64,000 nt of DNA, taken from the NCBI GenBank assembly GCA_014896315.1, contig JADBKP010000007.1:1-64000 (forward strand), read 5' to 3'. The stretch comes from Limnochordales bacterium. GTDB lineage: Bacteria; Bacillota; Limnochordia; Limnochordales; DUMU01. Positions 12,661-60,939 of this stretch are shown here, piece by piece. Positions within the stretch are counted from its first letter, which is position 1; each line of letters begins with the position of its first letter. Under the pieces are notes generated by a model. The model saw only the letters and a program-made list of their open reading frames with translations. It had not been told where the DNA came from and ran no database searches. A program made the position numbers and the translations under genes.

Positions 12661-12821
12661 CTCTTATCACGAGTGGCGGAGGGACTGGCCCGATGAAGCC
12701 CGGCAACCTGCTCGTATCCTCAATCTCGCGCGCCTGTAATTGCTAAGGCGCTGCCTAGGTACGAGTAAGGTGCCAAGTCCTGCAGCGAAGATCCTGGGGA
12801 TCTTCGGCTGAGAGATAAGAG
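12661..12821 (+). ncRNA. SAM-I (S-box) riboswitch aptamer
   Basis: CTCTTATCacgAGtGGcGGAGGGACTGGCCCGATGAAGCCCGGCAACC...GGTGCCAAGTCCTGCAGCGAAGATC...GCTGAGAGATAAGAG; P1 CTCTTATC/GATAAGAG is 8 bp perfect. Confidence 0.95.
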
Positions 12822-12943: not shown

Positions 12944-13324
12944 ATGTCTCTAAAGGACGTAAGGACTCGCTTCGTGTTGGATCGCATAAAGGGAACATCA
13001 TGGAAACACCGGTCTTACATCGAGCACTTGCAGATAATTGAGGACACGATCATCGCCGGCGGGCCAAGGAGTTATATCGAAAGCATGGCATTCTGTTACT
13101 ACCGCGACAAATACCCCATCGAAGCCGAGTGCATCCAAAAGGAGATCAGACAAGGTATATACACGTCGCCCTCAGAATTTCGAAGGCTCTTGCACGAACA
13201 CAGGCTCAAGGTTCAGGCAGAGGAGCTTCGACTACTCCGGGAACGCAGAAGAAGACTGGCCGAGGAAAGAAAGCAGATGCAAGAAGAACGGAAGTTATGG
13301 TTGAGCCTCGGGGGAAAGCCGTAA
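12944..13324 (+). CDS. Hypothetical protein with charged coiled-coil C-terminus, downstream of the SAM riboswitch
   Basis: 126-aa ORF MSLKDVRTRFVLDRIKGTSWKHRSYIEHLQIIEDTIIAGGPRSYIESMAFCYYRDKYPIEAECIQKEIRQGIYTS...; first ORF after the riboswitch. Confidence 0.6.
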   Translation: MSLKDVRTRFVLDRIKGTSWKHRSYIEHLQIIEDTIIAGGPRSYIESMAFCYYRDKYPIEAECIQKEIRQGIYTSPSEFRRLLHEHRLKVQAEELRLLRERRRRLAEERKQMQEERKLWLSLGGKP

Positions 13325-13504: not shown

Positions 13505-14503
13505 CTACTTCTGCCAGCGGACGGGCCGTGCCAGCGTCTGCTTGATGCGGGTGGCCATGGTGCGAGCAGCCTGTTCAGCAGAGATTTGGCCCCGCAATAC
13601 CGGCAACATGCTTTGGCCGATGATGCCCGCCACTTCGTTCCACTGGGGAATGAGAGGCACGGTCCGTCCATACTGCATCATCTCGACGAAGACGATATCG
13701 CGCCTGGGGCGGACCTGCGGGTCAAGAAACGCGGGGGAGCGGGCCACCGACAGAAGCGCTGGCACGATGCAGTCCTCCTGCGACAGCCAGCGAGATGCGT
13801 CCGGGCCGACCATCCATTTCAGAAAACGCCAGGCGGCATCCCGGTGTCTGGTGGTAGCCACGATTGCGATTGCGGCCGGGTCGACCAATGCGGCATGGGT
13901 CGCCGGCCCCTTTGGCATTGGCGCAACATCGTAGTCCAGGTCTTCGAAGCCATTGAAGTACTGCACCGCAATACGGGAGTTCGGATACATGGCCAGCTTG
14001 TCGCGGGCAAACCATTGCTCGATGTCAACACGGCCGGCAGCGAGTTCGTCGTATGTTGGGTTGATTCGTTCTTTCAGCATCAGGTCTGCGTAGAACTGTA
14101 TGCCCCGCACGCTGGCAGGGCTATCGATGGTTACCTTCGGGGTACCGCCGCTTGTGATGCTGCTGCGGTCGATCACATCTCCACCCGCCTGCCAGATAAA
14201 CGGCAGGTAATGGTTTATCCAGGCCACCCCACCGAATCCATACATGTCCATGCTCCCGTCGCCCATCCACGTCGGCGGTGAGCTTACGACCGGCCGACAC
14301 GAGTGCTTGCCAGTCCCAGCTCCAGTCTGGCTCGGCCAGACCCTTGGCCTCGAACATAGAACGGTTATAGAAAAGCGCATATGGTCCGAACTCCCGCGGC
14401 AGGGCGTAAAGAGAGCCGAAGCGGAAGATGTCGCGGGCTGGGCCGACGAAATCGTCAAGCGTGAACGACCGGTCCTGCGCCAGGAACGGGTCAAGCGCTG
14501 CAA
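13505..14503 (-). CDS. ABC transporter solute-binding protein, C-terminal part (frameshifted)
   Basis: GSMDMYGFGGVAWINHYLPFIWQAGGDVIDRSS...YNPNSRIAV/YDVAPMPKGP...WRFLKWMVGPDASRWLSQE...QISAEQAARTMATRIKQTL. Confidence 0.75.
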   Translation of the reverse strand: MQRLTRSWRRTGRSRLTISSAQPATSSASALFTPCRGSSDHMRFSITVLCSRPRVWPSQTGAGTGKHSCRPVVSSPPTWMGDGSMDMYGFGGVAWINHYLPFIWQAGGDVIDRSSITSGGTPKVTIDSPASVRGIQFYADLMLKERINPTYDELAAGRVDIEQWFARDKLAMYPNSRIAVQYFNGFEDLDYDVAPMPKGPATHAALVDPAAIAIVATTRHRDAAWRFLKWMVGPDASRWLSQEDCIVPALLSVARSPAFLDPQVRPRRDIVFVEMMQYGRTVPLIPQWNEVAGIIGQSMLPVLRGQISAEQAARTMATRIKQTLARPVRWQK

Positions 14504-14909
14504 GGGCGCCGGCCGCGGCCAGAGCCGGGACGAGGTAGGGCGGCAACATGATCACATCCGGCCCGGCGCCTGAGGCCAACAGAATGGGCACTTTGTCCCC
14601 ATACTCCGGGTAAGGCGTGTGCTCCGGAATCACCTGGATATCAGGGTTGCTGGCCCGGAACATTTTGATCAGCTGTTCAACCTTCTGCTGCTCCGATTCA
14701 CCGCCCCAGAACATGTAGCGGATGGTTACAGGAGTTGATGACGTGGCCGCGTGAGCGATAGTACCTGGTTTAGGGACTGTCGCGGCAAGAGTCACTGCTA
14801 ATATGAGAGCGATTGCGGGAGTTCTGGCCCTTTTGGCCGATAACACCGCTCCTGCCGACCGTCCTAAGGGTACGGCTGATACGTGCCTTTGGCTCGGTGG
14901 GTGCTTCAC
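14121..14909 (-). CDS. ABC transporter sugar-type solute-binding protein, N-terminal part (frameshifted)
   Basis: TPVTIRYMFWGGESEQQKVEQLIKMFRASNPDIQVIPEHTPYPEYGDKVPILLASGAGPDVIMLPPYLVPALA; reading continues in 13505..14503 after a 1-nt change. Confidence 0.8.
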   Translation of the reverse strand: MKHPPSQRHVSAVPLGRSAGAVLSAKRARTPAIALILAVTLAATVPKPGTIAHAATSSTPVTIRYMFWGGESEQQKVEQLIKMFRASNPDIQVIPEHTPYPEYGDKVPILLASGAGPDVIMLPPYLVPALAAAGALAALDPFLAQDRSFTLDDFVGPARDIFRFGSLYALPREFGPYALFYNRSMFEAKGLAEPDWSWDWQALVSAGRKLTADVDGRREHGHVWIRWGGLDKPLPAVYLAGGWRCDRPQQHHKRRYPEGNHR

Positions 14910-15174: not shown

Positions 15175-18100
15175 TCAGACTCGCAAGACAACCGCCGACG
15201 CCGACACCGCCGGTGTGCACTCGAGCGATTCGACACCCCTTGATCTGCATGAGGCCAACTGTTGGAGCAGGTGCTTAGCCAGGGAAACCCATTCTACCAA
15301 TCGAGCGGGTAGTTCCTCGGGCAGACACGTGGCCGACCTCGCTTCCACTTCAGCGATTTCGGGGTAGCCCACCAACTGTATTAGCCCCGCCCATGGGTAT
15401 CCTTGTCCTGCCAGGCGGGCCAGTGCGGTGCTCGGGTCGCAGCCCTCCGCAGCCATCAGGCATGCGGCCGCGTCGGCTATCAGTAGGCGCGCCCGTTCCT
15501 CCAGCGTCCCCCGACGACTGTTCTCAATGGTCCGGTCTATCTCAGCGACATACGACTGCCTCTTCTTGGCAACTGCCTCCACCGCACGCTGGGCCTCCCA
15601 AAGGTGTGAGCTGGTCACCGCTAAAGGTGGGCCGTTCAACAGCTCTTCCAGTTGACGCAGGCTCGTGATGGGGCAGAGACTCCCGTCTGCCGAAGGGGCA
15701 AACCAGCCCCTGACCTCCCCTGCACAGGCGCGGATTACACCCGGTCCCGCGAAGGCTTCTACGGGGGCGGGTACGGTTTCCAGTATCTCCGTCAGGAGTG
15801 GCTCGCCGTATGTCAGGAGACGCACTCGTCCGGGATGGGCATCGGCTATGTCGGGGTCGAAAGTCACACCATAGCTGCGACCGGCCCAGTCCAGTACCAG
15901 CGCACCGGGAATCTCGGGATGGGGGATAAAGCGGAAACCCAGGGAACTCGCACGCAAGGTGCGCTCCAGGTCAGCCAGGTTAAGAGGCGCCGGGGGAGGA
16001 CCCTCAGGTGGCGGGGTTCCTAAGGCCCATTCATCCAGGGATGGCAGCGCAGTCTGTGCCTCGATCTCCCGGCGGATCTCGGCCAGGGCCTCCGCCAATA
16101 CGGCCTCCCTTTCTTCATGAGGCGCAACCACCGCCTGCTCAATGGCTCTGGGAATCCGGGCCAGAATGGGAGACAGTTCGCCTATTACGGAGCGGAACCA
16201 GTGTATGCGGTCCGAAAGAGCCTTGTAAACTCTAGCCTCTACAGTTTCCTCACCGTGTGGCCCCAGCAAGAAGTAATGGCGGATCCAAACGTCCGGATAC
16301 ACCTGCCCGATGCGGTCAAAGCGGCCAATGCGCTGTTCGACTCGCATGGGATTCCAGGGCATGTCGTAGTTGATGAGGACACCGCACGTCTGCAGGTTGA
16401 GGCCCTCGCTGGCTGCCTCAGTGCAAAGCAGCACCCGGATTTCCCCGATCCGGAACGCATTCTTAACCTCTTCTTTGGTCACCCGTACCCATTCGCGCCC
16501 GTCCCACCGTTCGCCGCCACGACCCGAATAGCAGGCCAGGGAGCGCCCGTACACGCCCACCAGACGTTCACGGAGTGCGTCCATTGTGTCCGTGTATTGG
16601 GTAAACACCGCTACCGTCTCCCGCGGAGCAAGAACCTGTGCCAGTTCATCTACCAGGCGAGTAAACTTGGTATCCTCGCCCAGGCTCGCTACCCGCTCCA
16701 GGATCGCATCGAGCTCGCGGATCGCCTCGGCCATCAAACGGCGCAAGGATGGCGGAAGCCCTTGTCTAGTGGTCGTTTCGTACAACTCCTCCAGGGTATC
16801 ATCGTTCAGATCCGCCTCTTCCTCGTCCTCTTCCGTGAGGCCAAACAGGGGGCCGGCGCGATCGAGCACATAAGCGCGATACCTTTCCAGGCTACGGCGA
16901 AGGGCAGCAAAAGAAGATGTCAACCGTTTGCGGTAGACGGTCATAATGAATCCCAAGCCTTGGCGTTCATTTTCAAAGCGTTGGTAGAAACGGGATACAA
17001 ACCGCTCGACCCGATTGTAGAGATCCCATTCCTCGGGGGTCATGTTGATCCAGACAGGCTCAGGCCGACGCTCGGGAATACGTTCATGGAGGAGCCCTAT
17101 TTCCTGGTAGCGACGAAGCGTCTCGCGGGTGGCGCGGAACATCTTCCGACCGAGGGGGGATGCTTGACGACATAACTCTAGCAAGGCAGCCTGCTCTGAG
17201 GATGAGAGCCTCCTGATTTGGCGGGCAGACTGTTGTCCGGTGAATATCGAGTACACTCTCTGCCACGCAACCGGCCCCAGCTTTTCCCTCAAGGCCGGGG
17301 CGAGATCGTCGACCACTTCATCGCTAGTCGCGCGTGCCAGCCGCAGCAGGAGTTCCCAGTCTCCTTCCCCACCCCGCACTGCCCGCAACTCTTCGAGGAA
17401 ACGGAGAAAGCGCTCCTCGGAGGCAGCCCACACCGGAGGCAAGCCGAGTTGCCGGAGCAGGTCATACAGTTCCACCGGGTGCAACTGCATAGGGGTGGCG
17501 GTAAGCAGGAGCAACCCCTTCGTGCGAGAACACAGGCCCGGGCGACCGTTTTCCCCCTCCAGCAGAGCCAGCAGGCGGTTCGGGCGGTAGCGGTTGCGAG
17601 CGAGGATGTCGCGCCGCCTGGCGTGGTGAGCCTCGTCCACGATAACGAGGTCCCACGGGGTAGCCTGGAGGAGCTCTGCCGACCGCTGCGCACGCTTAGC
17701 CAGTTGGCTTGAGGCAATCATGACTGGGAAAGCATCCCAGGGATTAGTGTCAGGCGCGGTCACAGTGCGGAAATAGTCAATGAAGCTGTGACCGTCGTAC
17801 ACAGGCACGTTAAGGGCGAATTTCTCGTACAGCTCCTCCTGCCACTGCCGCTGCACACTCTTGGGTACCAGGATAAGGCAGCGGCGCACCGCACCCGAAA
17901 GAACCAGGGATCTTAAGATGAGCCCTGCTTCGACTGTCTTGCCAAGGCCTACTTCGTCGGCCAGGAGGAACCGCTCCGGAAACCGATGCACGACCTCCTT
18001 CACTACCCTGACCTGATGAGGCCACGGACGCACCCCGGAGGTGTGCACGCCCAGGTATTCCCCTCCCTGTAGGTAGGGGGCGTCGCGAAGGAAGGCAAAC

Positions 18101-18885
18101 AGTATTCGCTCCCGCTGGTCGACAGGGATGGATGGGGTGGTCACGGGCTCAATCTCAAGGGGATCGCGAAGAGGCGGGGCGGAGGGGGCGAGGGCCAGCA
18201 GACGGTCCCTAACCGCCTGGGGGATGGGAAGGGCACGCCAGCCTTGCTCACGCCCTTCCCAGAGGCGGCGTATACGCTCAACCACCTGAGCGAGGTAGGG
18301 CCGGGTGGCGTCCCAGGAAAAGTACACGGAGAATTGCTCGTAGTTTGCGCACCACCCCTGGGGGGTCTCGTTAACACTACCGGAGAACGCCACCTGGTGT
18401 CCACAGGCGTCGGTGAACACGCCTTCTTTGGGATGAAAGTAGTCGGCTGCCAGGGAAGCGGGCAGAGGACGGCCGTCTGGCCCTATGGGCAGCACCACGC
18501 GGATGGTCAGCCTGCCGGTCGCTATCATCCAGGCCAACACCTCCAGGCGGCGGCGGGCCTGGCCTGTAGGGTCAGCAGCCAGTTCTTCCAGGGCCTGTAA
18601 AAGCCTGGCTTCGAGGGCCGCCTGGAAGCCTTCCTCGCCGAACTCGATGGCCCGTACATCCTCCTCTGAAAGCTCAGCACCGACCAGGAGTCGCATTCGA
18701 CCACCCGCCCGTACCAGGTGGGCCACGCCCGCAGCCGCGATGGCCAAGGACCAAGAGGAGAAAAAGCCGGAGGTGCGATCGTAAGAAACAGAGCGGGAGA
18801 GGGCAGGCAGGTAAAAGTCCCGCAGGCGGTCGTCGGCAGGACCATAGGAGATCTTCCAGTTGACCTCGGTAAGGCAGCCGGCCAT
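15175..18885 (-). CDS. SNF2/DEAH-type helicase with N-terminal PLD-like domain
   Basis: N-term GPADDRLRDFYLPALSRSVSYDRTSGFFSSWSLAIAAAG, HPKEGVFTDACGHQVAFSGSVNETPQGW; helicase LLADEVGLGKTVEAGLILRSL, LVIVDEAHHARRR, LLLTATPMQL, NYDMPWNPMRVEQRIGRFDRIGQ. Confidence 0.95.
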   Translation of the reverse strand: MAGCLTEVNWKISYGPADDRLRDFYLPALSRSVSYDRTSGFFSSWSLAIAAAGVAHLVRAGGRMRLLVGAELSEEDVRAIEFGEEGFQAALEARLLQALEELAADPTGQARRRLEVLAWMIATGRLTIRVVLPIGPDGRPLPASLAADYFHPKEGVFTDACGHQVAFSGSVNETPQGWCANYEQFSVYFSWDATRPYLAQVVERIRRLWEGREQGWRALPIPQAVRDRLLALAPSAPPLRDPLEIEPVTTPSIPVDQRERILFAFLRDAPYLQGGEYLGVHTSGVRPWPHQVRVVKEVVHRFPERFLLADEVGLGKTVEAGLILRSLVLSGAVRRCLILVPKSVQRQWQEELYEKFALNVPVYDGHSFIDYFRTVTAPDTNPWDAFPVMIASSQLAKRAQRSAELLQATPWDLVIVDEAHHARRRDILARNRYRPNRLLALLEGENGRPGLCSRTKGLLLLTATPMQLHPVELYDLLRQLGLPPVWAASEERFLRFLEELRAVRGGEGDWELLLRLARATSDEVVDDLAPALREKLGPVAWQRVYSIFTGQQSARQIRRLSSSEQAALLELCRQASPLGRKMFRATRETLRRYQEIGLLHERIPERRPEPVWINMTPEEWDLYNRVERFVSRFYQRFENERQGLGFIMTVYRKRLTSSFAALRRSLERYRAYVLDRAGPLFGLTEEDEEEADLNDDTLEELYETTTRQGLPPSLRRLMAEAIRELDAILERVASLGEDTKFTRLVDELAQVLAPRETVAVFTQYTDTMDALRERLVGVYGRSLACYSGRGGERWDGREWVRVTKEEVKNAFRIGEIRVLLCTEAASEGLNLQTCGVLINYDMPWNPMRVEQRIGRFDRIGQVYPDVWIRHYFLLGPHGEETVEARVYKALSDRIHWFRSVIGELSPILARIPRAIEQAVVAPHEEREAVLAEALAEIRREIEAQTALPSLDEWALGTPPPEGPPPAPLNLADLERTLRASSLGFRFIPHPEIPGALVLDWAGRSYGVTFDPDIADAHPGRVRLLTYGEPLLTEILETVPAPVEAFAGPGVIRACAGEVRGWFAPSADGSLCPITSLRQLEELLNGPPLAVTSSHLWEAQRAVEAVAKKRQSYVAEIDRTIENSRRGTLEERARLLIADAAACLMAAEGCDPSTALARLAGQGYPWAGLIQLVGYPEIAEVEARSATCLPEELPARLVEWVSLAKHLLQQLASCRSRGVESLECTPAVSASAVVLRV

Positions 18886-18888
18886 GGC

Positions 18889-21795
18889 CTACGCTTCCTC
18901 CTCAGTCCCATCCCCAAGCTCATCTTGGTCCAGAGGCATTGGCAATTGCTCCGGCAAGCCTTCCTGCTCGCTTGCTGGTTCCATTTCCGGGAACGCCGCC
19001 TGGCGCAGCCGCTCCAAAGCCTCTGCTTCGGGCCGGAGGTAGCCGCCCTCCCGGTTGCGAACTGCCGGCACGGCACGTATCGCCCCCTGCAGCAGACCAC
19101 GAAACGCTGGGTCATTAGCGTAGCCACGATTCTCCAGAAACCGAGCAGCTGCCGCTGTACCTTCTTCGGCCACGAGCAGGAGCGCCGTGTGGAGCACGTC
19201 AAGGAGCACGGAGAAGGTGCCGTCGGGGTCGAGACGGCCGCGAGTGCGGCGAACGGCTGGCTCCTGCAAGGTAACAGTGTCGCCAGACTTGGTGAGCACA
19301 CGGTGGGTACGGATAAGATCCGCCTCCAGATCACATCCCAGAGCGAATGACAGCTTGCGCGCCTCGTCGGCAGGGAAGGTCGCGGCCCTGAAGGCATCCC
19401 AAGCCAGGAGCCAGAAGTCGGTAACCGGGTCAAAGCGCACCGTCTTGCCCAAGAGTTTCTGCTTACGCAAAGCCGCCACTTCTTCGCGGGCGACCTCCAG
19501 AGCAGTTTCCGGCTCAAGCCGGAGCGGCTCACCGGTCCGCGGATCGGCCTCCCCCGAGAGCACTGGCCAATTCCGCGACAGCACCCCAAGCACCGGACCG
19601 TAGGTAGCCAGGTATAGGTCTACACCGCTGATCCCTGCCTTTTCATACTCCTGCGCCCGCTCGCGGGCGGTTCGGCGAACCTCGGCCTTAAGCTCATCCC
19701 ACCAGGCAGGCTCGCCTGAAGTCCGGCGCTTGCGGCAGGTGAGGAGGATGGTGGACTGGGCCGCGTTCTTTTTCGCCTGGTGCAGGGAATGTTCGCTTTC
19801 CGTCCGTACCGGCCAGGACGACTCTACTGTGAAGCCTGCCTCTATGAGGGCACGCCCCAGGGCGTTCCAGGCGTCCGTGCGCTTGTGAGTGAACATCACG
19901 GTTAGCACCCCATCCTCCCGCAACACGCGGTGCATCTCCCGGAAGCAGGCCAGCATCTTGCGCTCATAGTCCTTCTCGGCGAGCTCTCTGGGGCCAGGAT
20001 GTCTCATCCCATGGAAGCGAGCCGGGTTGGCGACCGCTTCCGAGTCCTTGTCGGTGAGGAGGGTGGTGAACACCCCAGGGTATAGGTCTCCCACCGTCCG
20101 TTTCATCCACACGTAGAAGAAGTCGGACAGCTCGGCGTACATAACGTTGTCGTAATACGGCGGGTCCACCACTATGGCATGGACGCTTCCAGAAGGGACT
20201 TCCGCCAGGTTCGCCGCGTCCCCGTACCTGACCGTGACCGGAGGCTGGGGACCAGCGACCGGGAATAGGCTCCGAGTCGACTGGCCGGCCAAGTGCGCTA
20301 TCTCTCTGTATGCATCAACCACTTGATCTAGAGCCCATGGCAACAGCATGCGGGCTGCATCAAACTCCCCGAAGCTCCACTTGAAGGAGAAGTCATGGCG
20401 GTCGAAGGTGTTGCGCACCTTGTAACGTGTGGAGTCCCAACTCGCCAAGTTGGAGTTGTAGTCAGCACACTTGTCGAGCACCAGTCCCAGATAGGTCAGC
20501 ACCGCCCGAGCGCGGTCTTCGGGGAGAGTCGCCCGCACCTGAGCTGCCACTTCGTGGTACGTTTCCAGGTACGTGCATAGAGCAAGGAGTTGACGCGGTG
20601 AGAAGAGGTCGGCCCAGGTCCGCATACCGTACTGCAGAGGCCGTGCGTCGGCAGCCGTATCTGGGAACACTTCGCGCGGTACCAAACCTCTGGCCTCCCA
20701 TGCCGGCAGCCGGCGGGCAAGCTCTTCCGCGGCCCGCTCCGCAGCCTCAATATCTTCTTGCGTAGGAAGCCGGAAGTCCTTGCCCTGCGGAGTCTGCACG
20801 GCCACGGCATAAAGCTGTGCACCCATGCGGCCAGCCTGGGCTTCCGACTTGATGTAATCGTCGGTAATGGTTTCGCTCGTCCAGGGTGAGATAGCGGTCC
20901 CGCGGGCCACCGTGCCCCGCTCGGGATGGGCGGCACGCGCCTCACTACCCCGCACGACCTCGAACCGGCACTCGGACATGACAGGATCAGCCACTAGCCT
21001 TACGGCAACTACGGGTTCGTCCTTACTCCGAAGCCACCAATTGGGAGAAAGTGGAACAGGCTTGCCCGTGTACGGACAGGTTACGGTGCGGGCCCAAATA
21101 TAAGCAAAAACCCGTTCGTATCCTGTCACGGGGTAGAACTCTGCTAGGCATTCCGCTACGCGCTCGGCCCACATGGCGCCGTAGCGCTGCAGGTCACCTA
21201 TAAGCTCTTCTCCGAAACGCGCCGGGTAGTCGAGCGTGGCGTGCAGGATCACGTGGGCGATGGGATTCAGTTCGTTGGCGAAGGTGGCGAAGCCGCACCG
21301 TAGCGCTTCGAAAGGTATGGATCCTCCACCGGCCATCGGGTCGGAGATCAGCAGGTCATGCGTTCCCCATGCAACATCAATGAGCCGGCGAATAGCAGCA
21401 ATTTGTTCCCCGGACGGCGTATGCGTGAACGCGCGACTGTAACCGTAACCCCCACCGGGGAGGCGCTTGCCCGTTTCCCGGGCGACTTCGATGGCTCTCC
21501 GGGCTGCGACCGGATCCCCACGGATGCCGAGCAGGTCATGGAGGAACCACTGGCGGTAGGCCTGCTCGTCGGGGAAGAGCCGCTTTAGGTCTTCGGGCCA
21601 GTCGGGACTCCACGCGGGAAGCACGCTGCCCAGAACCGCGGCCCGGGAAACCACGAGTGGCCGCCGAGCCCACCAGACGTGAAGGCGGTTCGGAGGTGGA
21701 TGCTGGCCCGTACTGTTCTCTCGGCGCGACTCTATCCCGAGCTGTGCAGCCGGAAGCCAGGTGGTGATCAGAGGATTGTGCATGCTGGTCTTCAC
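18889..21795 (-). CDS. DUF1156 domain-containing DNA (adenine-type) methyltransferase
   Basis: N-term RRENSTGQHPPPNRLHVWWARRPLVVSRAAVLGSVLP, ISDPMAGGGSIPFEALRCGFATFANELNPIAHVI, VDPPYYDNVMYAELSDFFYVWMKR (DPPY). Confidence 0.95.
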   Translation of the reverse strand: MKTSMHNPLITTWLPAAQLGIESRRENSTGQHPPPNRLHVWWARRPLVVSRAAVLGSVLPAWSPDWPEDLKRLFPDEQAYRQWFLHDLLGIRGDPVAARRAIEVARETGKRLPGGGYGYSRAFTHTPSGEQIAAIRRLIDVAWGTHDLLISDPMAGGGSIPFEALRCGFATFANELNPIAHVILHATLDYPARFGEELIGDLQRYGAMWAERVAECLAEFYPVTGYERVFAYIWARTVTCPYTGKPVPLSPNWWLRSKDEPVVAVRLVADPVMSECRFEVVRGSEARAAHPERGTVARGTAISPWTSETITDDYIKSEAQAGRMGAQLYAVAVQTPQGKDFRLPTQEDIEAAERAAEELARRLPAWEARGLVPREVFPDTAADARPLQYGMRTWADLFSPRQLLALCTYLETYHEVAAQVRATLPEDRARAVLTYLGLVLDKCADYNSNLASWDSTRYKVRNTFDRHDFSFKWSFGEFDAARMLLPWALDQVVDAYREIAHLAGQSTRSLFPVAGPQPPVTVRYGDAANLAEVPSGSVHAIVVDPPYYDNVMYAELSDFFYVWMKRTVGDLYPGVFTTLLTDKDSEAVANPARFHGMRHPGPRELAEKDYERKMLACFREMHRVLREDGVLTVMFTHKRTDAWNALGRALIEAGFTVESSWPVRTESEHSLHQAKKNAAQSTILLTCRKRRTSGEPAWWDELKAEVRRTARERAQEYEKAGISGVDLYLATYGPVLGVLSRNWPVLSGEADPRTGEPLRLEPETALEVAREEVAALRKQKLLGKTVRFDPVTDFWLLAWDAFRAATFPADEARKLSFALGCDLEADLIRTHRVLTKSGDTVTLQEPAVRRTRGRLDPDGTFSVLLDVLHTALLLVAEEGTAAAARFLENRGYANDPAFRGLLQGAIRAVPAVRNREGGYLRPEAEALERLRQAAFPEMEPASEQEGLPEQLPMPLDQDELGDGTEEEA

Positions 21796-22211
21796 TCTCC
21801 CCCTAGGAGCACCCTCAACGCACGCCGCGCGCTGCGTGTCGAGACTGCTTTGCTGAACCAGTAGTAGGCCTCCTCGTCCGGCATGTTGCGAATGGCTTCG
21901 GCGATACGTTCCATGCGAGACGTCTTCCGCAGGGGTTTGAGGGCCAGGAGGGTTAGAGCGACCCGAACTCCCTGATCCTCCCTAAGCTCAAAGGGCTCTC
22001 GGCGGTCCCGGTGTAGATCTGAGGGCCGGTAGCCGCTCTTTCGCAAGGCCTCTACTACCTGGGTAAGGCTGGCCTGGAAGGGAGCATCCCACGCGCGGAC
22101 CAGCGGCCGCTCCTCGGGGTCCGCACCGCTGTTGATACGCTGGCGGAGGTCGACCCCGTATGAACCGTCAGGGCGCGGGAGCACGTAAAGGAGAAACTGC
22201 CGGAGATTCAC
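21792..22211 (-). CDS. Small conserved-looking protein within the DUF499-DUF1156 cassette
   Basis: 139-aa ORF overlapping both neighbours by 4 nt (start 22211 vs stop 22208; stop 21792 vs start 21795). Confidence 0.7.
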   Translation of the reverse strand: MNLRQFLLYVLPRPDGSYGVDLRQRINSGADPEERPLVRAWDAPFQASLTQVVEALRKSGYRPSDLHRDRREPFELREDQGVRVALTLLALKPLRKTSRMERIAEAIRNMPDEEAYYWFSKAVSTRSARRALRVLLGGE

Positions 22212-25200
22212 GATTCTTGCACCTCCCCGGCGGAGGGTTCCGCCGTGATGCGTACGCGGCCGGGGATAAGGTGTGCGAGGGCATCGCGCACCTGATTGAT
22301 GCCCTCAGGAGTCAGCGGATCACGCGCGCGCCAGTCCAGCCGAGCGCGGACCTGAGCGGCAGACGCCCGCTCCAGCACGGAAACAACGGCGTCCTTCAAA
22401 TCCTTGTACCTTTCCCAGGGCCCACGAAACTCCAGGCGCATGCTCCCCCCCTCGAATTCCCCCGTGGCGGACACCTCCACGCGGAACTGGCCGGGCCCGA
22501 GCTGGGGGACGGCCAACCCCAGGCTGCGGAGCTCTCGCACGCCCTCGGGGCCGTCGCCGTCCACGGTAAGCTGAAGCACGGCAAGCGCGGCTACGTGGCG
22601 ATCGTGCATGCGGTCGATAATTGCCTGTAACGCCTGCGCCGCTGTGCCCGATGCTTCGAACGTTTCTTCAGGAGCTGGAGGCGGTGGCGGCTGGCACCGG
22701 CAACGGGCGGCGGGTTCCCCGCATACGGGACAGCGTTCCTCTTGAGGTTCGGCACCAGCTATGGGTATCCCGCGCTCCCGGGCCAACTCGGGTTCCATCA
22801 GCATAGCCTCGCCGTCCAGGCGCACTAGCGGAACTGGCGACTCGCCCCCGTATCCCCTACCCTCACTCGGATCGTAGTACACCCACAGACCCCGCCGGAT
22901 TCCCTGCAGGATTCCCTCCCGCAGGGGCCTGGGGTCGAGCAAAATCCGCAGGCCTCTGCGCATGGCGAAAGCCCGCATGGTTTCGGCCACTGACATCTCC
23001 CGGGAACCGTGAGTCCACGCCCATCGTTTGATTAGCTCAGGGGCGATAGGGCCGTCATCACCCGTGTAGACTTTCTCCAATCGCCGTAACGCGTCCAGGA
23101 TGACCCTGCTCTGATCGCGCTTCACTTCCCCCTGGTCCTGGGCGGGAAGGGCTTCGCGTGCCAGTCCGGCGGCGGAGCGGAGGGCGTCCGCCGACGGATA
23201 GTAGAGAAACCGGTAGGCCCGGTGGATGGCCACCCGCAGCTGAAGTTCACTTTCATCTTTCCGTTCCTGAAGACGTTTCCGTTGTTCGGGCGTAAGAAGC
23301 CTTTGCCTCTCGGGATTATCCGCCAAGCGGCGGACGGCCTCTGCTTCCCGAGCCTTGATAATCATCTCCTCCTTCTGCGCTTCATCGCATACCAGAAAGA
23401 TGACGTTGTTTTGAAACGTGCGTGGCTCACCGACAGTACCCTTCTCTTGGAAGAGACGCTGCACCAGTAGCGGCGGAGTCTCTTCATCCTCCCGAGCTGC
23501 AGCAGCATCGTAGTGTATAATAGCGAGCTTTGGCTTGCCGGCATCATCCGGAATCTCGGCGGGTTCGGCAGGGAAACGACAAACCTCGAAAATGCCCGAT
23601 TGCCAGATAGCCCTAAGCCGTTCGTCCAGGACCTGCTTGCCCTTGGTCACCCCGACATACTGCATCTCATCGACAACCATCTTGTTTAGGGAAGGCTCGG
23701 TAAGGAACCGCCAGCGCTCTCCTTCATAATCCAAGTACCAGCAGCGCCGCTCGAGTTCTTTGAGCGCCTGGGAGAGCAGGGCCGGGTCGTCACCCGGCGC
23801 CAGGCAGGCCAGGGCAACCTCCTCCGTCCGCGCCCCTACCACCGCACCCCGCGTCAGACTGTGCAGAAAGATGGCGGTAGCAGCTCGCTTGGCAAACGGC
23901 CGCCGCCCCGAGGCCTGCCAGGCACGGTCGATGTCGCTGGCGAATCCGGGGTGTTCGGCCACGGGACTGGCGATGTCCGCGTGCACTACCTCCTTGTAGC
24001 GAGGTCGGTCGAGGCGGCTTGTGAGATCCTCCACGATGGGATCCCAGGCCAGGTCCAGGTGGTGCGGGTGGATGAGCCAGGCGTCGGCCGGACGGATCTC
24101 CCACAACCGGCGGATAGCTCGTGCCAGCAGGCGCAGCGCCCCGCGGGTACGCTGAAAGTTAGGTATGGTCGATACCTTGCGGTTCAGTGTCACCAGGAGT
24201 TCGGGGTGAAAGGGATAGCTCCGCTCGAGGAACCGCAGGTAGTCGGGGGTCAGGGCGCTTGCGGGAAGCTCTGCACCCTGCCGTTGCGCTTCTTCAAAGT
24301 AGGCGCGGTAGGCAGCGGCAATTTCAGGAATACAACTGGTGTCCACCCGCTCGAAGAGCTGACGGACCAGAATGCTAGCAATTTCCTCCTCGCCTGAGGT
24401 GGGCGTGAGGATACGTTCGATCCGACCCGAGATGGCCTTAAGCTCTGCGATAAGCTGGGTGAGCACCTGCCCCAGCTCCTCGGTCTCCTCGCCGAAGGCA
24501 TCGGAGGCTTCCGCCAGGGTGAGTACGCAGACCGCCCGTGGTGAAGCCGCCACCGATTCCAGCAGGGTCTTGAGAAACGGAGCCAGGTGGCCGGCCAGAG
24601 CTTCCTTGCCCCGCCAGGTACGCAGGGTGCGCAGGTACGGGGCCAGTTCGTCGAGCAGGATGACCACGGGCCCCTCGCCGATGATCTCGCGCCAGGGGAT
24701 AGCACCCGGCACCCGGGCCTCGTCGCTTCTCCGCACCATCTCGTACGCGACTCGGCCGCCCAGTTGATAGGCGATTTCGCCCCAGGGGGTATACGTCACC
24801 GTGCCGTCAGGATGGCGGATTCCATCCACCGGGTTCAAATCGTCCCCGACCACGACTGCCACACGGGCCCGCTCGCGGAGCACCCCGGCGTTCCCCCCGA
24901 CATAATGCGCCAGCACCTCCGCAGGAAGCCGACCGCAAGCGGCGTGGTAGAGTGCGATCAAGCTGTGAGTCTTACCACCGCCAAATCCCGTTTCCAGGCG
25001 CAGAACCGGCGCTGCCATGGGGTTTGTGCCCCACACGCGGCCTAGCGCCTCAGTGAGTAACGTGCGCAGTCCTTCGGTGGGGTGCGTCCGGTTGAAGAAA
25101 GCTATCGGGTCAGCATACACCGGGTCGGCAGTCCCCCGGACGACGTCCCCCAGCCGGGCCGCGAAGGTTGCTTCGTGCAACTCTCCCGACAGTACCTCCG

Positions 25201-25273
25201 GCCGCGGAACGCACGCTTCAAATACCGTTTTCACCTCGGCGTCCCCCATTCGCAATCCACCTGTCCTGCTCAT
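22208..25273 (-). CDS. DUF499 domain-containing P-loop ATPase
   Basis: LETGFGGGKTHSLIALYHAA (Walker A), GPVVILLDELAPYLRTL (Walker B), Zn-ribbon-like ERCPVCGEPAARCRC. ORF opens at 25408, but MSRTGGLRMGDAEVKTVFEACVPRPEVLSGEL at 25273 is a more likely start. Confidence 0.92.
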   Translation of the reverse strand: MSRTGGLRMGDAEVKTVFEACVPRPEVLSGELHEATFAARLGDVVRGTADPVYADPIAFFNRTHPTEGLRTLLTEALGRVWGTNPMAAPVLRLETGFGGGKTHSLIALYHAACGRLPAEVLAHYVGGNAGVLRERARVAVVVGDDLNPVDGIRHPDGTVTYTPWGEIAYQLGGRVAYEMVRRSDEARVPGAIPWREIIGEGPVVILLDELAPYLRTLRTWRGKEALAGHLAPFLKTLLESVAASPRAVCVLTLAEASDAFGEETEELGQVLTQLIAELKAISGRIERILTPTSGEEEIASILVRQLFERVDTSCIPEIAAAYRAYFEEAQRQGAELPASALTPDYLRFLERSYPFHPELLVTLNRKVSTIPNFQRTRGALRLLARAIRRLWEIRPADAWLIHPHHLDLAWDPIVEDLTSRLDRPRYKEVVHADIASPVAEHPGFASDIDRAWQASGRRPFAKRAATAIFLHSLTRGAVVGARTEEVALACLAPGDDPALLSQALKELERRCWYLDYEGERWRFLTEPSLNKMVVDEMQYVGVTKGKQVLDERLRAIWQSGIFEVCRFPAEPAEIPDDAGKPKLAIIHYDAAAAREDEETPPLLVQRLFQEKGTVGEPRTFQNNVIFLVCDEAQKEEMIIKAREAEAVRRLADNPERQRLLTPEQRKRLQERKDESELQLRVAIHRAYRFLYYPSADALRSAAGLAREALPAQDQGEVKRDQSRVILDALRRLEKVYTGDDGPIAPELIKRWAWTHGSREMSVAETMRAFAMRRGLRILLDPRPLREGILQGIRRGLWVYYDPSEGRGYGGESPVPLVRLDGEAMLMEPELARERGIPIAGAEPQEERCPVCGEPAARCRCQPPPPPAPEETFEASGTAAQALQAIIDRMHDRHVAALAVLQLTVDGDGPEGVRELRSLGLAVPQLGPGQFRVEVSATGEFEGGSMRLEFRGPWERYKDLKDAVVSVLERASAAQVRARLDWRARDPLTPEGINQVRDALAHLIPGRVRITAEPSAGEVQES

Positions 25274-25436
25274 CCTACCGCCGGGAGACAGTTCGATCGC
25301 CGGCCCAGCTATTCCTTCCCGGCAACCTGCATACGCCCATGGAAAGGCCTTCGCTTGCGCCCCGCCGTCAAAAAAAATCGGGATGGGATTTTGCCTCTTC
25401 TTTCCCATCCGCTCTTCCGAAAGCCTGCATAAATCC

Positions 25437-25512
25437 TGGCGGCCCCGAGAGGAATCGAACCTCCGACACGCGGTTTAGGAAACCGCTGCTCTATCCACTG
25501 AGCTACGGGGCC
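25437..25512 (-). tRNA. tRNA-Arg(CCT)
   Basis: Minus strand GGCCCCGTAGCTCAGTGGATAGAGCAGCGGTTTCCTAAACCGCGTGTCGGAGGTTCGATTCCTCTCGGGGCCGCCA; acceptor GGCCCCG/CGGGGCC, anticodon loop TTCCTAA, encoded CCA. Confidence 0.95.
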
Positions 25513-59080: not shown

Positions 59081-60939
59081 CGGCACTTTGACACCCGTAA
59101 TGCAAAGAAATGGCTATACAAGGGCGTTTTGGGCGCGCGAGGCCTCCGTTTTGGCATCACGGTCGTCCTTCGCCAGGGGCTCGATGCGTGGTGGAATGCG
59201 GTATCCCAGGGCCTGGAAGATGGTAACCGCCTCCGGGGAGGCCTCGGAGCGCAGGCGATACATCGCTCCCTTGATCTCGATATAGGCTGACTTGATCCGA
59301 GAGAGGTGCTTGAGCGCCTCCGCCGCCGTCATCTTGATCCCTTTCGCATGAAGCTTCTTCTCCAGATAGCGCTCCAGGAGGTGGGCCAGCACGCACACAT
59401 GCACATGCGCCCGGATACGACGCTCCCGCCAGTGATACACGGGATTGATCTCTTCCAAGCTCTTCAGACTCCGGAAGGAACGCTCAATCGTTTGGAGATC
59501 CCGGTAGGCTCTGGCCACCTCCGCGCTGTCAAGCTGCTCGTAGCTGGTTCGGATCACGTACTTGCCGTCATAACGGGCTTCTTCCCGGATTCGGGCCTCG
59601 TCCAAACAGATACGGCCGTCATCGAGACGCATGAGATACCGGCCCTTACCCGGGTGGGAGTAGAGCCTGGCGGCCTCCCGTGACCAGGGATCGAGACCTT
59701 CCAGCTCGGCCCGAAGCTCCTCCACGATGGACTCCCGGGTCTGGCGGTCGTATTCAGCCTCGATGGGATTGAAGCAGACAATATAGCGGCGGTCCTCGAC
59801 CCGGACCTCTTTCACCCTGAGGTTCTCGGCCACTTCGCGATAGCGACCGGGCCAGGCCAAGACGATGTCTCGGACCTCTCCGGCCCGTCGCAACGGGCAG
59901 CCAACGATGTAGTGGATGCCGGCTTCCCGCAGTAGCTCCAGGTTCTCTTCGCTCAGCATCCCGCGATCACCCACGAAGATACAGTGGGTGACATGGAACC
60001 GCCGCTGCAGGGCATTAACCATTTTCTCCACGGTCGTTACGTCAGCGGTGGCGCCGGGTTCCACCTCATGAGCGAAGGGCAATCCCTCCCGGCTGTTGGC
60101 AAGAGTGAGGAGGAATTCTAACTCACCGTCCCGACCGTACTGGATCAGTTCTGACTCCCTTCCGTAGCTACGGATGAGAGTCGCATCGTAAAAGACGAGG
60201 CTCACGTCCAAAGAGAAGAGATCTCGCATACGCAGGAAGAGCCCTTCTTCGATCGGTTCTTTGTACTCGTGAAGGACGTCCAGCGCGCGGTAAAGGTGGT
60301 GAAGGCTGAGGCTCTTGGCTTCCGGGAAGTCAGCGTCATTGACAAGCCAATCATACGTACCACGATCACTGAAGGGATCAAGCAAGCGGTTGAAGACCAT
60401 ACCCCTGATCGCGGCTTCCACATCGAAGGTGAAGGCCCGGTCTCTGATCTGTCGCCGGATTTCGTCTCCGATGCCGAGTTCATCCCAAAGCCGTTGCAGT
60501 ACCACTAAGGCTCCGTACTCCCGGGTATGCTTGAGTATCAGGTCTTTTTCCAGGTCCAGCACCTGCAGCTTGTGGGTCTGACTGGCCAGGGCGGCGACCA
60601 TCTTGTCCACTCGATCCCGATCCATCTCATCCTCTCGGCCAACCGTGCAGATCACCTTCTGCCTGACCTTGCCGTTGCGTCGCTCATTCTCTACCAGCTG
60701 CCAATAGACGTACTCCTTACCGGACTGACGGACGATCTTACGGCGCAGGAACACCCGGCGTCACCTCCTTCCACTACGAACCATATCACGCATACCATCC
60801 AAGCGCAACATATTATCTTCACGCCAATAACCATGGCTTTGGCACTACCCCGTCACACGCGCGATCACCCGGGATATGCATTAAGCAGCGCTTCTTCTCC
60901 GGACACGCGCTCAAATGGGCATTTCACTGTCAAACTCCC
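59081..60939. mobile_element. IS1634-family insertion sequence
   Basis: Transposase 59114..60754; imperfect terminal inverted repeats GGCACTTTGACA..AATGC (left) and GGGAGTTTGACA..AATGC (right, reverse complement); flanking GTCCGG at 59075-59080 and 60940-60945. Confidence 0.8.
59114..60754 (-). CDS. IS1634 family transposase
   Basis: VSLVFYDATLIRSYG, PFAHEVEPGATADVTTVEKMVNAL, CIFVGDRGMLSEENLELLREAGIHYIVG, DGKYVIRTSYEQLDSAEVARAYRDLQTIERSFRSLKS, IRAHVHVCVLAHLLERYLEKKL. Confidence 0.93.
   Translation of the reverse strand: MFLRRKIVRQSGKEYVYWQLVENERRNGKVRQKVICTVGREDEMDRDRVDKMVAALASQTHKLQVLDLEKDLILKHTREYGALVVLQRLWDELGIGDEIRRQIRDRAFTFDVEAAIRGMVFNRLLDPFSDRGTYDWLVNDADFPEAKSLSLHHLYRALDVLHEYKEPIEEGLFLRMRDLFSLDVSLVFYDATLIRSYGRESELIQYGRDGELEFLLTLANSREGLPFAHEVEPGATADVTTVEKMVNALQRRFHVTHCIFVGDRGMLSEENLELLREAGIHYIVGCPLRRAGEVRDIVLAWPGRYREVAENLRVKEVRVEDRRYIVCFNPIEAEYDRQTRESIVEELRAELEGLDPWSREAARLYSHPGKGRYLMRLDDGRICLDEARIREEARYDGKYVIRTSYEQLDSAEVARAYRDLQTIERSFRSLKSLEEINPVYHWRERRIRAHVHVCVLAHLLERYLEKKLHAKGIKMTAAEALKHLSRIKSAYIEIKGAMYRLRSEASPEAVTIFQALGYRIPPRIEPLAKDDRDAKTEASRAQNALV

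Follow-up and report, generated by a model that had tools for sequence, protein, structure and literature searches.

The window, by which we mean the whole 64,000-nucleotide stretch of a Limnochordales bacterium contig that was analysed, carries four minus-strand genes for a P-loop ATPase, a small protein, a DNA methylase, and a helicase, which raises the question of what kind of defence system such a gene set represents. A preliminary description had read it as a combination of BREX and DISARM, allowing that the family may not be wholly new. That reservation was well founded: DUF499-type systems were included in a HEPN survey of 2013 (PMC3710099), Hma was described in 2021 (PMC8565338), and a classification of BREX-related (BR) systems of 2026 distinguishes Type-1 with a helicase-REase (including Hma), Type-2 with an HKD-helicase and DUF3780, and Type-3 with PglZ and iSTAND (PMC12839542). 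Passages of Bell et al. (2020) also describe PD-(D/E)XK or PLDc as the helicase-fused nuclease beside DUF499 and a methylase (PMC7641849). The operon unites the DUF499 ATPase, predicted DUF1156 N6-methylase, and SNF2 helicase of the DUF499-centred BR superfamily; because such systems are already in the literature, it is, as judged from its encoded domains, a member of that superfamily and not a BREX/DISARM hybrid. We estimate at roughly 80% the probability that it encodes a restriction–modification-like anti-phage system of this DUF499-centred kind, in a lineage defined by the small protein family DUF7680, with the function predicted from the gene content.

An intact operon of four coupled genes

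The features of the locus are as follows.

22208–25273 (longest ORF to 25408), minus strand: DUF499 AAA+/ORC-CDC6-like ATPase, first gene (Pfam, PADLOC, conserved start)
21792–22211, minus strand: DUF7680 protein, 139 aa (Pfam PF24728)
18889–21795, minus strand: DUF1156 DNA methyltransferase with a DPPY motif, predicted N6-adenine-specific (Pfam, PADLOC, motifs)
15175–18885, minus strand: PLD (HKD-type) domain and RapA-like SNF2 helicase, presumed restriction effector (Pfam, alignment)
25437–25512, minus strand (the operon strand): tRNA-Arg(CCT), directly upstream of the operon

The ORFs (22208–25408, 21792–22211, 18889–21795, and 15175–18885) are uninterrupted throughout. Translational coupling of the co-directional genes, as proposed earlier, is borne out at the junctions, two of which are 4-nt GTGA overlaps and the third a 3-nt gap (TAG-GCC-ATG). 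The ATPase start at 25273 corresponds to Met46 when the longest DUF499 ORF is translated, and it is plausible, because the nucleotide similarity to a copy from the same genus ends at 25271. The dN/dS values against the same-genus copy are 0.095–0.147 for all four genes (0.096 for the DUF7680 gene), and those against a second relative 0.10–0.13 (three genes compared). In alignments of 67–90 relatives, the Walker, DEAH, DPPY, and PLD catalytic positions show little or no variation, so the inactivated motifs that the preliminary description had named as evidence against itself were not encountered. Open reading frames, conserved catalytic positions, and low dN/dS together mark real coding sequence under purifying selection; the four-gene operon is intact and under selection, and a degenerate operon was ruled out on the latter two grounds.

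The ATPase matches Pfam DUF499 (E = 2.5e-33) and the PADLOC models HmaC (345 bits) and DUF499 (176 bits), and contains the Walker A motif GFGGGKTHS and a zinc ribbon (CPVCG...CRC), with Walker A and B conserved among relatives. BrxC, a relative of the DUF499 ATPase, binds double-stranded DNA in an ATP-dependent manner (PMC13326643). The methylase matches Pfam DUF1156 (E = 7.5e-19) and the PADLOC models HmaB (298 bits) and DUF1156_MTase (154 bits), with the motifs DPPYYDN and DPMAGGGS, of which DPPY and AGGG are conserved among relatives. In its target-recognition insert, most Cys residues of a zinc ribbon present in several relatives are gone from the alignment, and its specificity may therefore differ. 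The PHROGs DNA methyltransferase family phrog_10183 aligns with nearly the full methylase (E = 1.6e-123); phages carry relatives of the methylase, perhaps as self-protection.

The helicase matches Pfam SNF2-rel_dom (E = 1.8e-16) and Helicase_C (E = 1.9e-16), with RapA as its best solved relative, and carries the DEAH motif and a PLD-like HxK...GSxNET. Its N-terminal PLD-like domain scores 285 bits with a profile seeded with the window helicase, which also finds the helicases of DUF3780-type systems; the N-termini of the two kinds are homologous, and Pfam PLDc_2 matches the DUF3780-type ones. His151, Lys153, Asp159, Gly169, and Asn172 are invariant in 67 DUF7680-type relatives, with an HKD spacing one residue longer than the standard H.K.{4}D. 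Thus, the motifs claimed earlier for the ATPase, methylase, and helicase are all present, and the defence-type character of the gene set is upheld by the Pfam, PADLOC, and NCBIfam matches. The statement that the operon has no dedicated restriction endonuclease did not hold, since the helicase keeps the invariant catalytic residues of a putative PLD nuclease.

Position among DUF499-centred systems

In favour of the proposed merger of BREX and DISARM are the matches of the PADLOC BrxH and DrmD models to the helicase. The operon also has in common with BREX (Type 3) and DISARM the logic of a SNF2 helicase combined with a BrxC-like ATPase and a BrxX-like methylase (PMC12839542). However, the equivalog cut-off for DrmD is 610 bits and the helicase reaches 288, a likeness extending to RapA-like SNF2 helicases in general, and the best matches of the ATPase and methylase are HmaC and HmaB. 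The earlier observation that the operon has no PglZ, BrxL, DrmA, or DrmB was confirmed with Pfam, PADLOC, and NCBIfam models. Of the components that define BREX (PglZ, BrxC/DUF6079, BrxA/B, and BrxL or BrxH), PglZ and BrxL are absent from the operon and the ATPase is a DUF499 protein; the DrmA helicase and DrmB/DUF1998 that define DISARM are likewise absent. A BREX–DISARM hybrid is therefore very improbable.

Related loci were gathered via the methylase (80 named loci), DUF7680 (plasmids and 250 Bacillota genomes), DUF3780, and DUF1156, and their surroundings were scanned with profiles. The order DUF499–DUF7680–DUF1156–PLD/SNF2 was found in 90 loci from many phyla, including the window and some loci clipped by contig ends; the arrangement thus recurs in other genomes far beyond chance, as the preliminary description had expected of its DUF499/DUF1156/helicase neighbourhood. 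The compact form singled out there does show this co-occurrence but is no oddity, being a cargo-free member of a widespread lineage with a fixed small gene. The nearest named relatives are Candidatus Fermentithermobacillaceae and UBA3570 (Bacillota). Three architectures are separable: the above order; DUF499–DUF3780–DUF1156–PLD/SNF2; and helicase–methylase–DUF499 with neither small gene nor PLD domain. DUF7680 and DUF3780 never occur in one operon among the surveyed loci. Of the 47 DUF1156 places in the 250 Bacillota genomes, nine are DUF7680-type and 11 DUF3780-type.

Several loci and genomes stand out. Two kinds of DUF1156 system, DUF7680-type with either DUF3780-type or helicase-first type, are found together in G133 (L111 and L119, one DUF7680-type and one DUF3780-type) and in G259 (L215, L217, and L219). 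Some DUF7680-type operons look broken: in the haloarchaeal plasmids L005 and L006, the ATPase gene is in two pieces with ISH3 transposase genes between them (the methylase of L006 is interrupted as well), and in L034 the ATPase and helicase ORFs are split.

In a FastTree methylase tree of 124 rows, the three architectures stay apart; four rows without a small gene within the DUF7680 group are contig-end loci, and the divergent L184 stands alone. A mixture-model tree of 37 selected rows, with a single change for each group, gives supports of 88 for the DUF7680, 100 for the DUF3780, and 100 for the helicase-first group. The ATPase tree has a DUF3780 clade free of DUF7680 rows (support 100), although its separation is less sharp and a long DUF7680 branch (L079/L093) strays. 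The PADLOC models agree with this division: HmaA/B/C score 1092–1683 bits on one helicase-first locus against 217–345 on the window, PLD_Helicase and DUF1156_MTase score 829–979 bits on one DUF3780 locus against 154–202 on the window, and a Rhodococcus relative, like the window, stays at or below 345 bits on any of these models. The NCBIfam models for DUF3780 and Hma-like systems likewise give only weak matches.

The operon shares with Hma/Type-1 the DUF499 ATPase, DUF1156 methylase, and SNF2 helicase, with HmaB and HmaC as the best PADLOC models for the methylase and ATPase. Hma-like loci differ in their helicase–methylase–ATPase order without a small gene, and both Hma-like helicases checked with Pfam have a C-terminal NOV_C nuclease domain, as in Type-1/Hma. 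Hma proper was ruled out by gene order, domains, and model scores. Type-3 was also ruled out: its helicase is without nuclease fusion, whereas that of the window carries a PLD domain, the operon contains no PglZ, and the DUF7680 model is no STAND NTPase. To the EVE-associated COG1743–DUF499–SWI2/SNF2–nuclease systems (PMC7641849) there is a link in L002, where an EVE gene lies just upstream of DUF499; the small DUF7680 gene is unmentioned in the passages of Bell et al. on these systems.

Type-2 is among the closest described relatives. The gene order is the same, a coupled small gene occupies the corresponding position, and the helicase begins with an HKD/PLD domain (in Type-2 in place of TUDOR); in the helicase tree, the PLD helicases of both kinds group together on a single side (support 100). 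DUF3780 is present in the core locus of 98% of Type-2 taxa (PMC12839542). RefSeq labels DUF3780-type genes ‘anti-phage-associated’, names that reportedly originate from Gao et al. 2020. The operon could thus be a divergent Type-2 system, with DUF7680 being DUF3780 under another Pfam name and a separate subtype being unwarranted. We regard this as unlikely. The methylase does not group with DUF3780 systems, the Type-2 models match the window weakly, and one genome (G133) has a system of each kind. Moreover, the Pfam DUF3780 model (PF12635) finds nothing in the window’s genome; it fails on the small protein, which matches DUF7680 only. The window has both the order DUF499–DUF7680–DUF1156–PLD/SNF2 and a methylase in the DUF7680 group. 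The DUF7680 operons form a separate and apparently unnamed lineage, and the operon of the window belongs to neither Type-1, Type-2, nor Type-3 as described, where ‘unnamed’ refers to the accessible literature and the main text of PMC12839542, whose types may already include DUF7680 loci.

The DUF7680 protein and the adjoining cargo junction

The product of 21792–22211, which had been listed simply as a small protein, is encoded by a real gene; what had been overlooked is that Pfam assigns it to DUF7680 (E = 3.7e-30). It has no match in the PADLOC, NCBIfam, or PHROGs models, and thus no phage homologue in PHROGs. For DUF3780, no definitive homologue was found in the 2026 classification (PMC12839542). 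The DUF7680 and DUF3780 profiles align over ~95 columns (hhalign E = 1.2e-5; probability, 81%). The trimmed alignment scores 34.9, whereas none of 300 column shuffles exceeds 25.6; a reversed profile gives 13.3, and 27 unrelated segments give at most 16.7. The secondary structures agree at 80 of the 89 aligned positions (best of 88 rotations, 73). These profile and model comparisons indicate that DUF7680 and DUF3780 are probably distantly homologous, a relationship that is new within the literature examined and that counts in favour of the Type-2 reading.

The AlphaFold2 model of DUF7680 (pLDDT, 95; pTM, 0.89) comprises three strands and five to six helices in 139 residues; that of DUF3780 is weaker (71.5). 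Fold searches gave no PDB or BFVD match below 0.001 for the DUF7680 model, for which a known fold was accordingly dropped, and no matching solved fold for the DUF3780 model. The nucleic-acid-binding repeats of Pur-alpha show a weak Foldseek similarity to the DUF7680 model (E about 1; probability about 0.5), which is a lead only. Since there is no fold match, the role assigned to DUF7680 below is a guess from genetics.

DUF7680 was found in 74 of the 80 methylase-chosen loci. The six others (L020, L048, L070, L071, L080, and L095) are all located at the ends of contigs or on short ones; the sole candidate for a true absence is L080, an archaeal fragment with DUF499 directly followed by the methylase. 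All nine DUF7680 genes of the 250 Bacillota genomes, and those on the seven plasmids inspected, adjoin DUF499 and DUF1156 genes. The gap between DUF499 and DUF7680 exceeds 600 nt in only one of 86 loci, that between DUF7680 and the methylase in 41 of 89, and that between methylase and helicase in 20 of 80; the contrast between the first two (Fisher p = 7e-14) is no more than indicative, the loci being related to one another. In L067, the DUF499–DUF7680 pair lies together on the strand opposite to the methylase and helicase. DUF7680 is thus a constant fourth member of the system, in nearly all cases coupled directly to DUF499, which is new within the literature examined, and this gene arrangement suggests that the two proteins probably form one physical unit.

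Between DUF7680 and the methylase there is a fixed cargo site, which in about half of the loci accommodates other genes, several of them for defence. In loci sampled for long ORFs, and hence not as a census (L019, L021, L027, L050, L054, L055, L056, L057, L061, L066, L069, L081, and L082), the cargo includes OLD-TOPRIM/Gabija-like (L021), PtuA-like (L050), AriA/HEC-01-like (L027 and L082), Avs3a-like (L069), NsnB-like (L054), Schlafen AlbA_2 (L056), and Hsp70-like (L061) genes, in addition to unknown genes. Auxiliary effectors beside BR systems have been reported (PMC12839542); the fixed slot is new within the literature examined. It is empty in the window, and a frequently occupied junction of this kind has no counterpart in 11 of 11 DUF3780 loci, a further difference from Type-2.

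Mobility, proposed mechanism, and significance

A genome of the same genus (G250) has its own copy (L214) on another contig among unrelated genes. This copy is 84.4% identical in nucleotides to window 15175–25271 (10,131 aligned bases, from the ATPase start to the helicase stop), and a copy at 81% (L215) occurs in a genome that belongs to the same order but to a different family. On a further contig of G250 (L213), the tRNA-Arg and upstream genes of the window are present with 44–50% protein identity, and the cassette is absent there. The high cassette identity against the low identity of these neighbours points to horizontal transfer, and on these comparisons the cassette moves as a unit, which is likewise new within the literature examined. 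The stretch missing at the tRNA in G250 also takes in window 10.2–15.2 kb, which does not fit one clean insertion event; a search of the window for att-like duplications of the 3′ end of the tRNA-Arg found none.

The window is no defence island, the neighbours being sugar-metabolism, glycosyltransferase, and unknown genes. At 13505–14909 (minus strand), a gene for an ABC-transporter solute-binding protein is split by an apparent frameshift into two ORFs matching SBP_bac_1 positions 4–148 and 152–305, either a pseudogene or a sequencing error. A SAM riboswitch (12661–12821, plus strand; E = 2.7e-16) is followed by a small ORF (12944–13324) with no Pfam match, and no methionine or transport gene was recognized downstream. 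The DDE transposase gene at 59083–60754 has an edge (59083–59337) 96% identical to the end of the L213 contig, and the element is probably an insertion sequence common to both.

Movement as a unit, the pairing of methylase and nuclease as in selfish restriction–modification systems, and the location outside a defence island would also suit an epigenetic module or a self-maintaining, toxin–antitoxin-like restriction–modification unit spread selfishly rather than via phage defence. We consider this improbable, because other anti-phage genes occur as cargo and, in the main text of PMC12839542, an experimental test of the relative HmaA is cited with anti-phage activity reported; maintenance and defence are in any case compatible and force no exclusive choice.

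As an anti-phage system, the operon would most likely work as follows. The DUF1156 methylase would N6-methylate a host motif, as its family suggests. DUF499 and DUF7680 would assemble on DNA in an ATP-dependent manner and judge its modification state, with DUF7680 as a putative adaptor or modification reader between the ATPase and the other components. Unmodified DNA would engage the SNF2 motor and be cut by the HKD-type PLD domain. A more far-reaching proposal, which we put forward tentatively and somewhat short of even odds, is that the DUF7680 loci constitute a fourth, undescribed DUF499 subtype, in which an inseparable ATPase–DUF7680 pair with a DUF7680/DUF3780 superfamily fold absent from the PDB signals self-modification to the ATPase or the PLD–SNF2 effector, and in which the junction serves as an inherent site where defence genes can be exchanged as back-up.

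The PADLOC models tested match DUF7680 loci weakly and leave the small gene unlabelled. Hma is defined as three genes, and for the small fourth gene of DUF3780 systems no homologues are known. A second lineage with a fixed, ATPase-coupled, and probably homologous small gene supplies a concrete candidate for the step, recognition or adaptor, that is missing, and compact cargo-free operons such as that of the window are suited to biochemistry.
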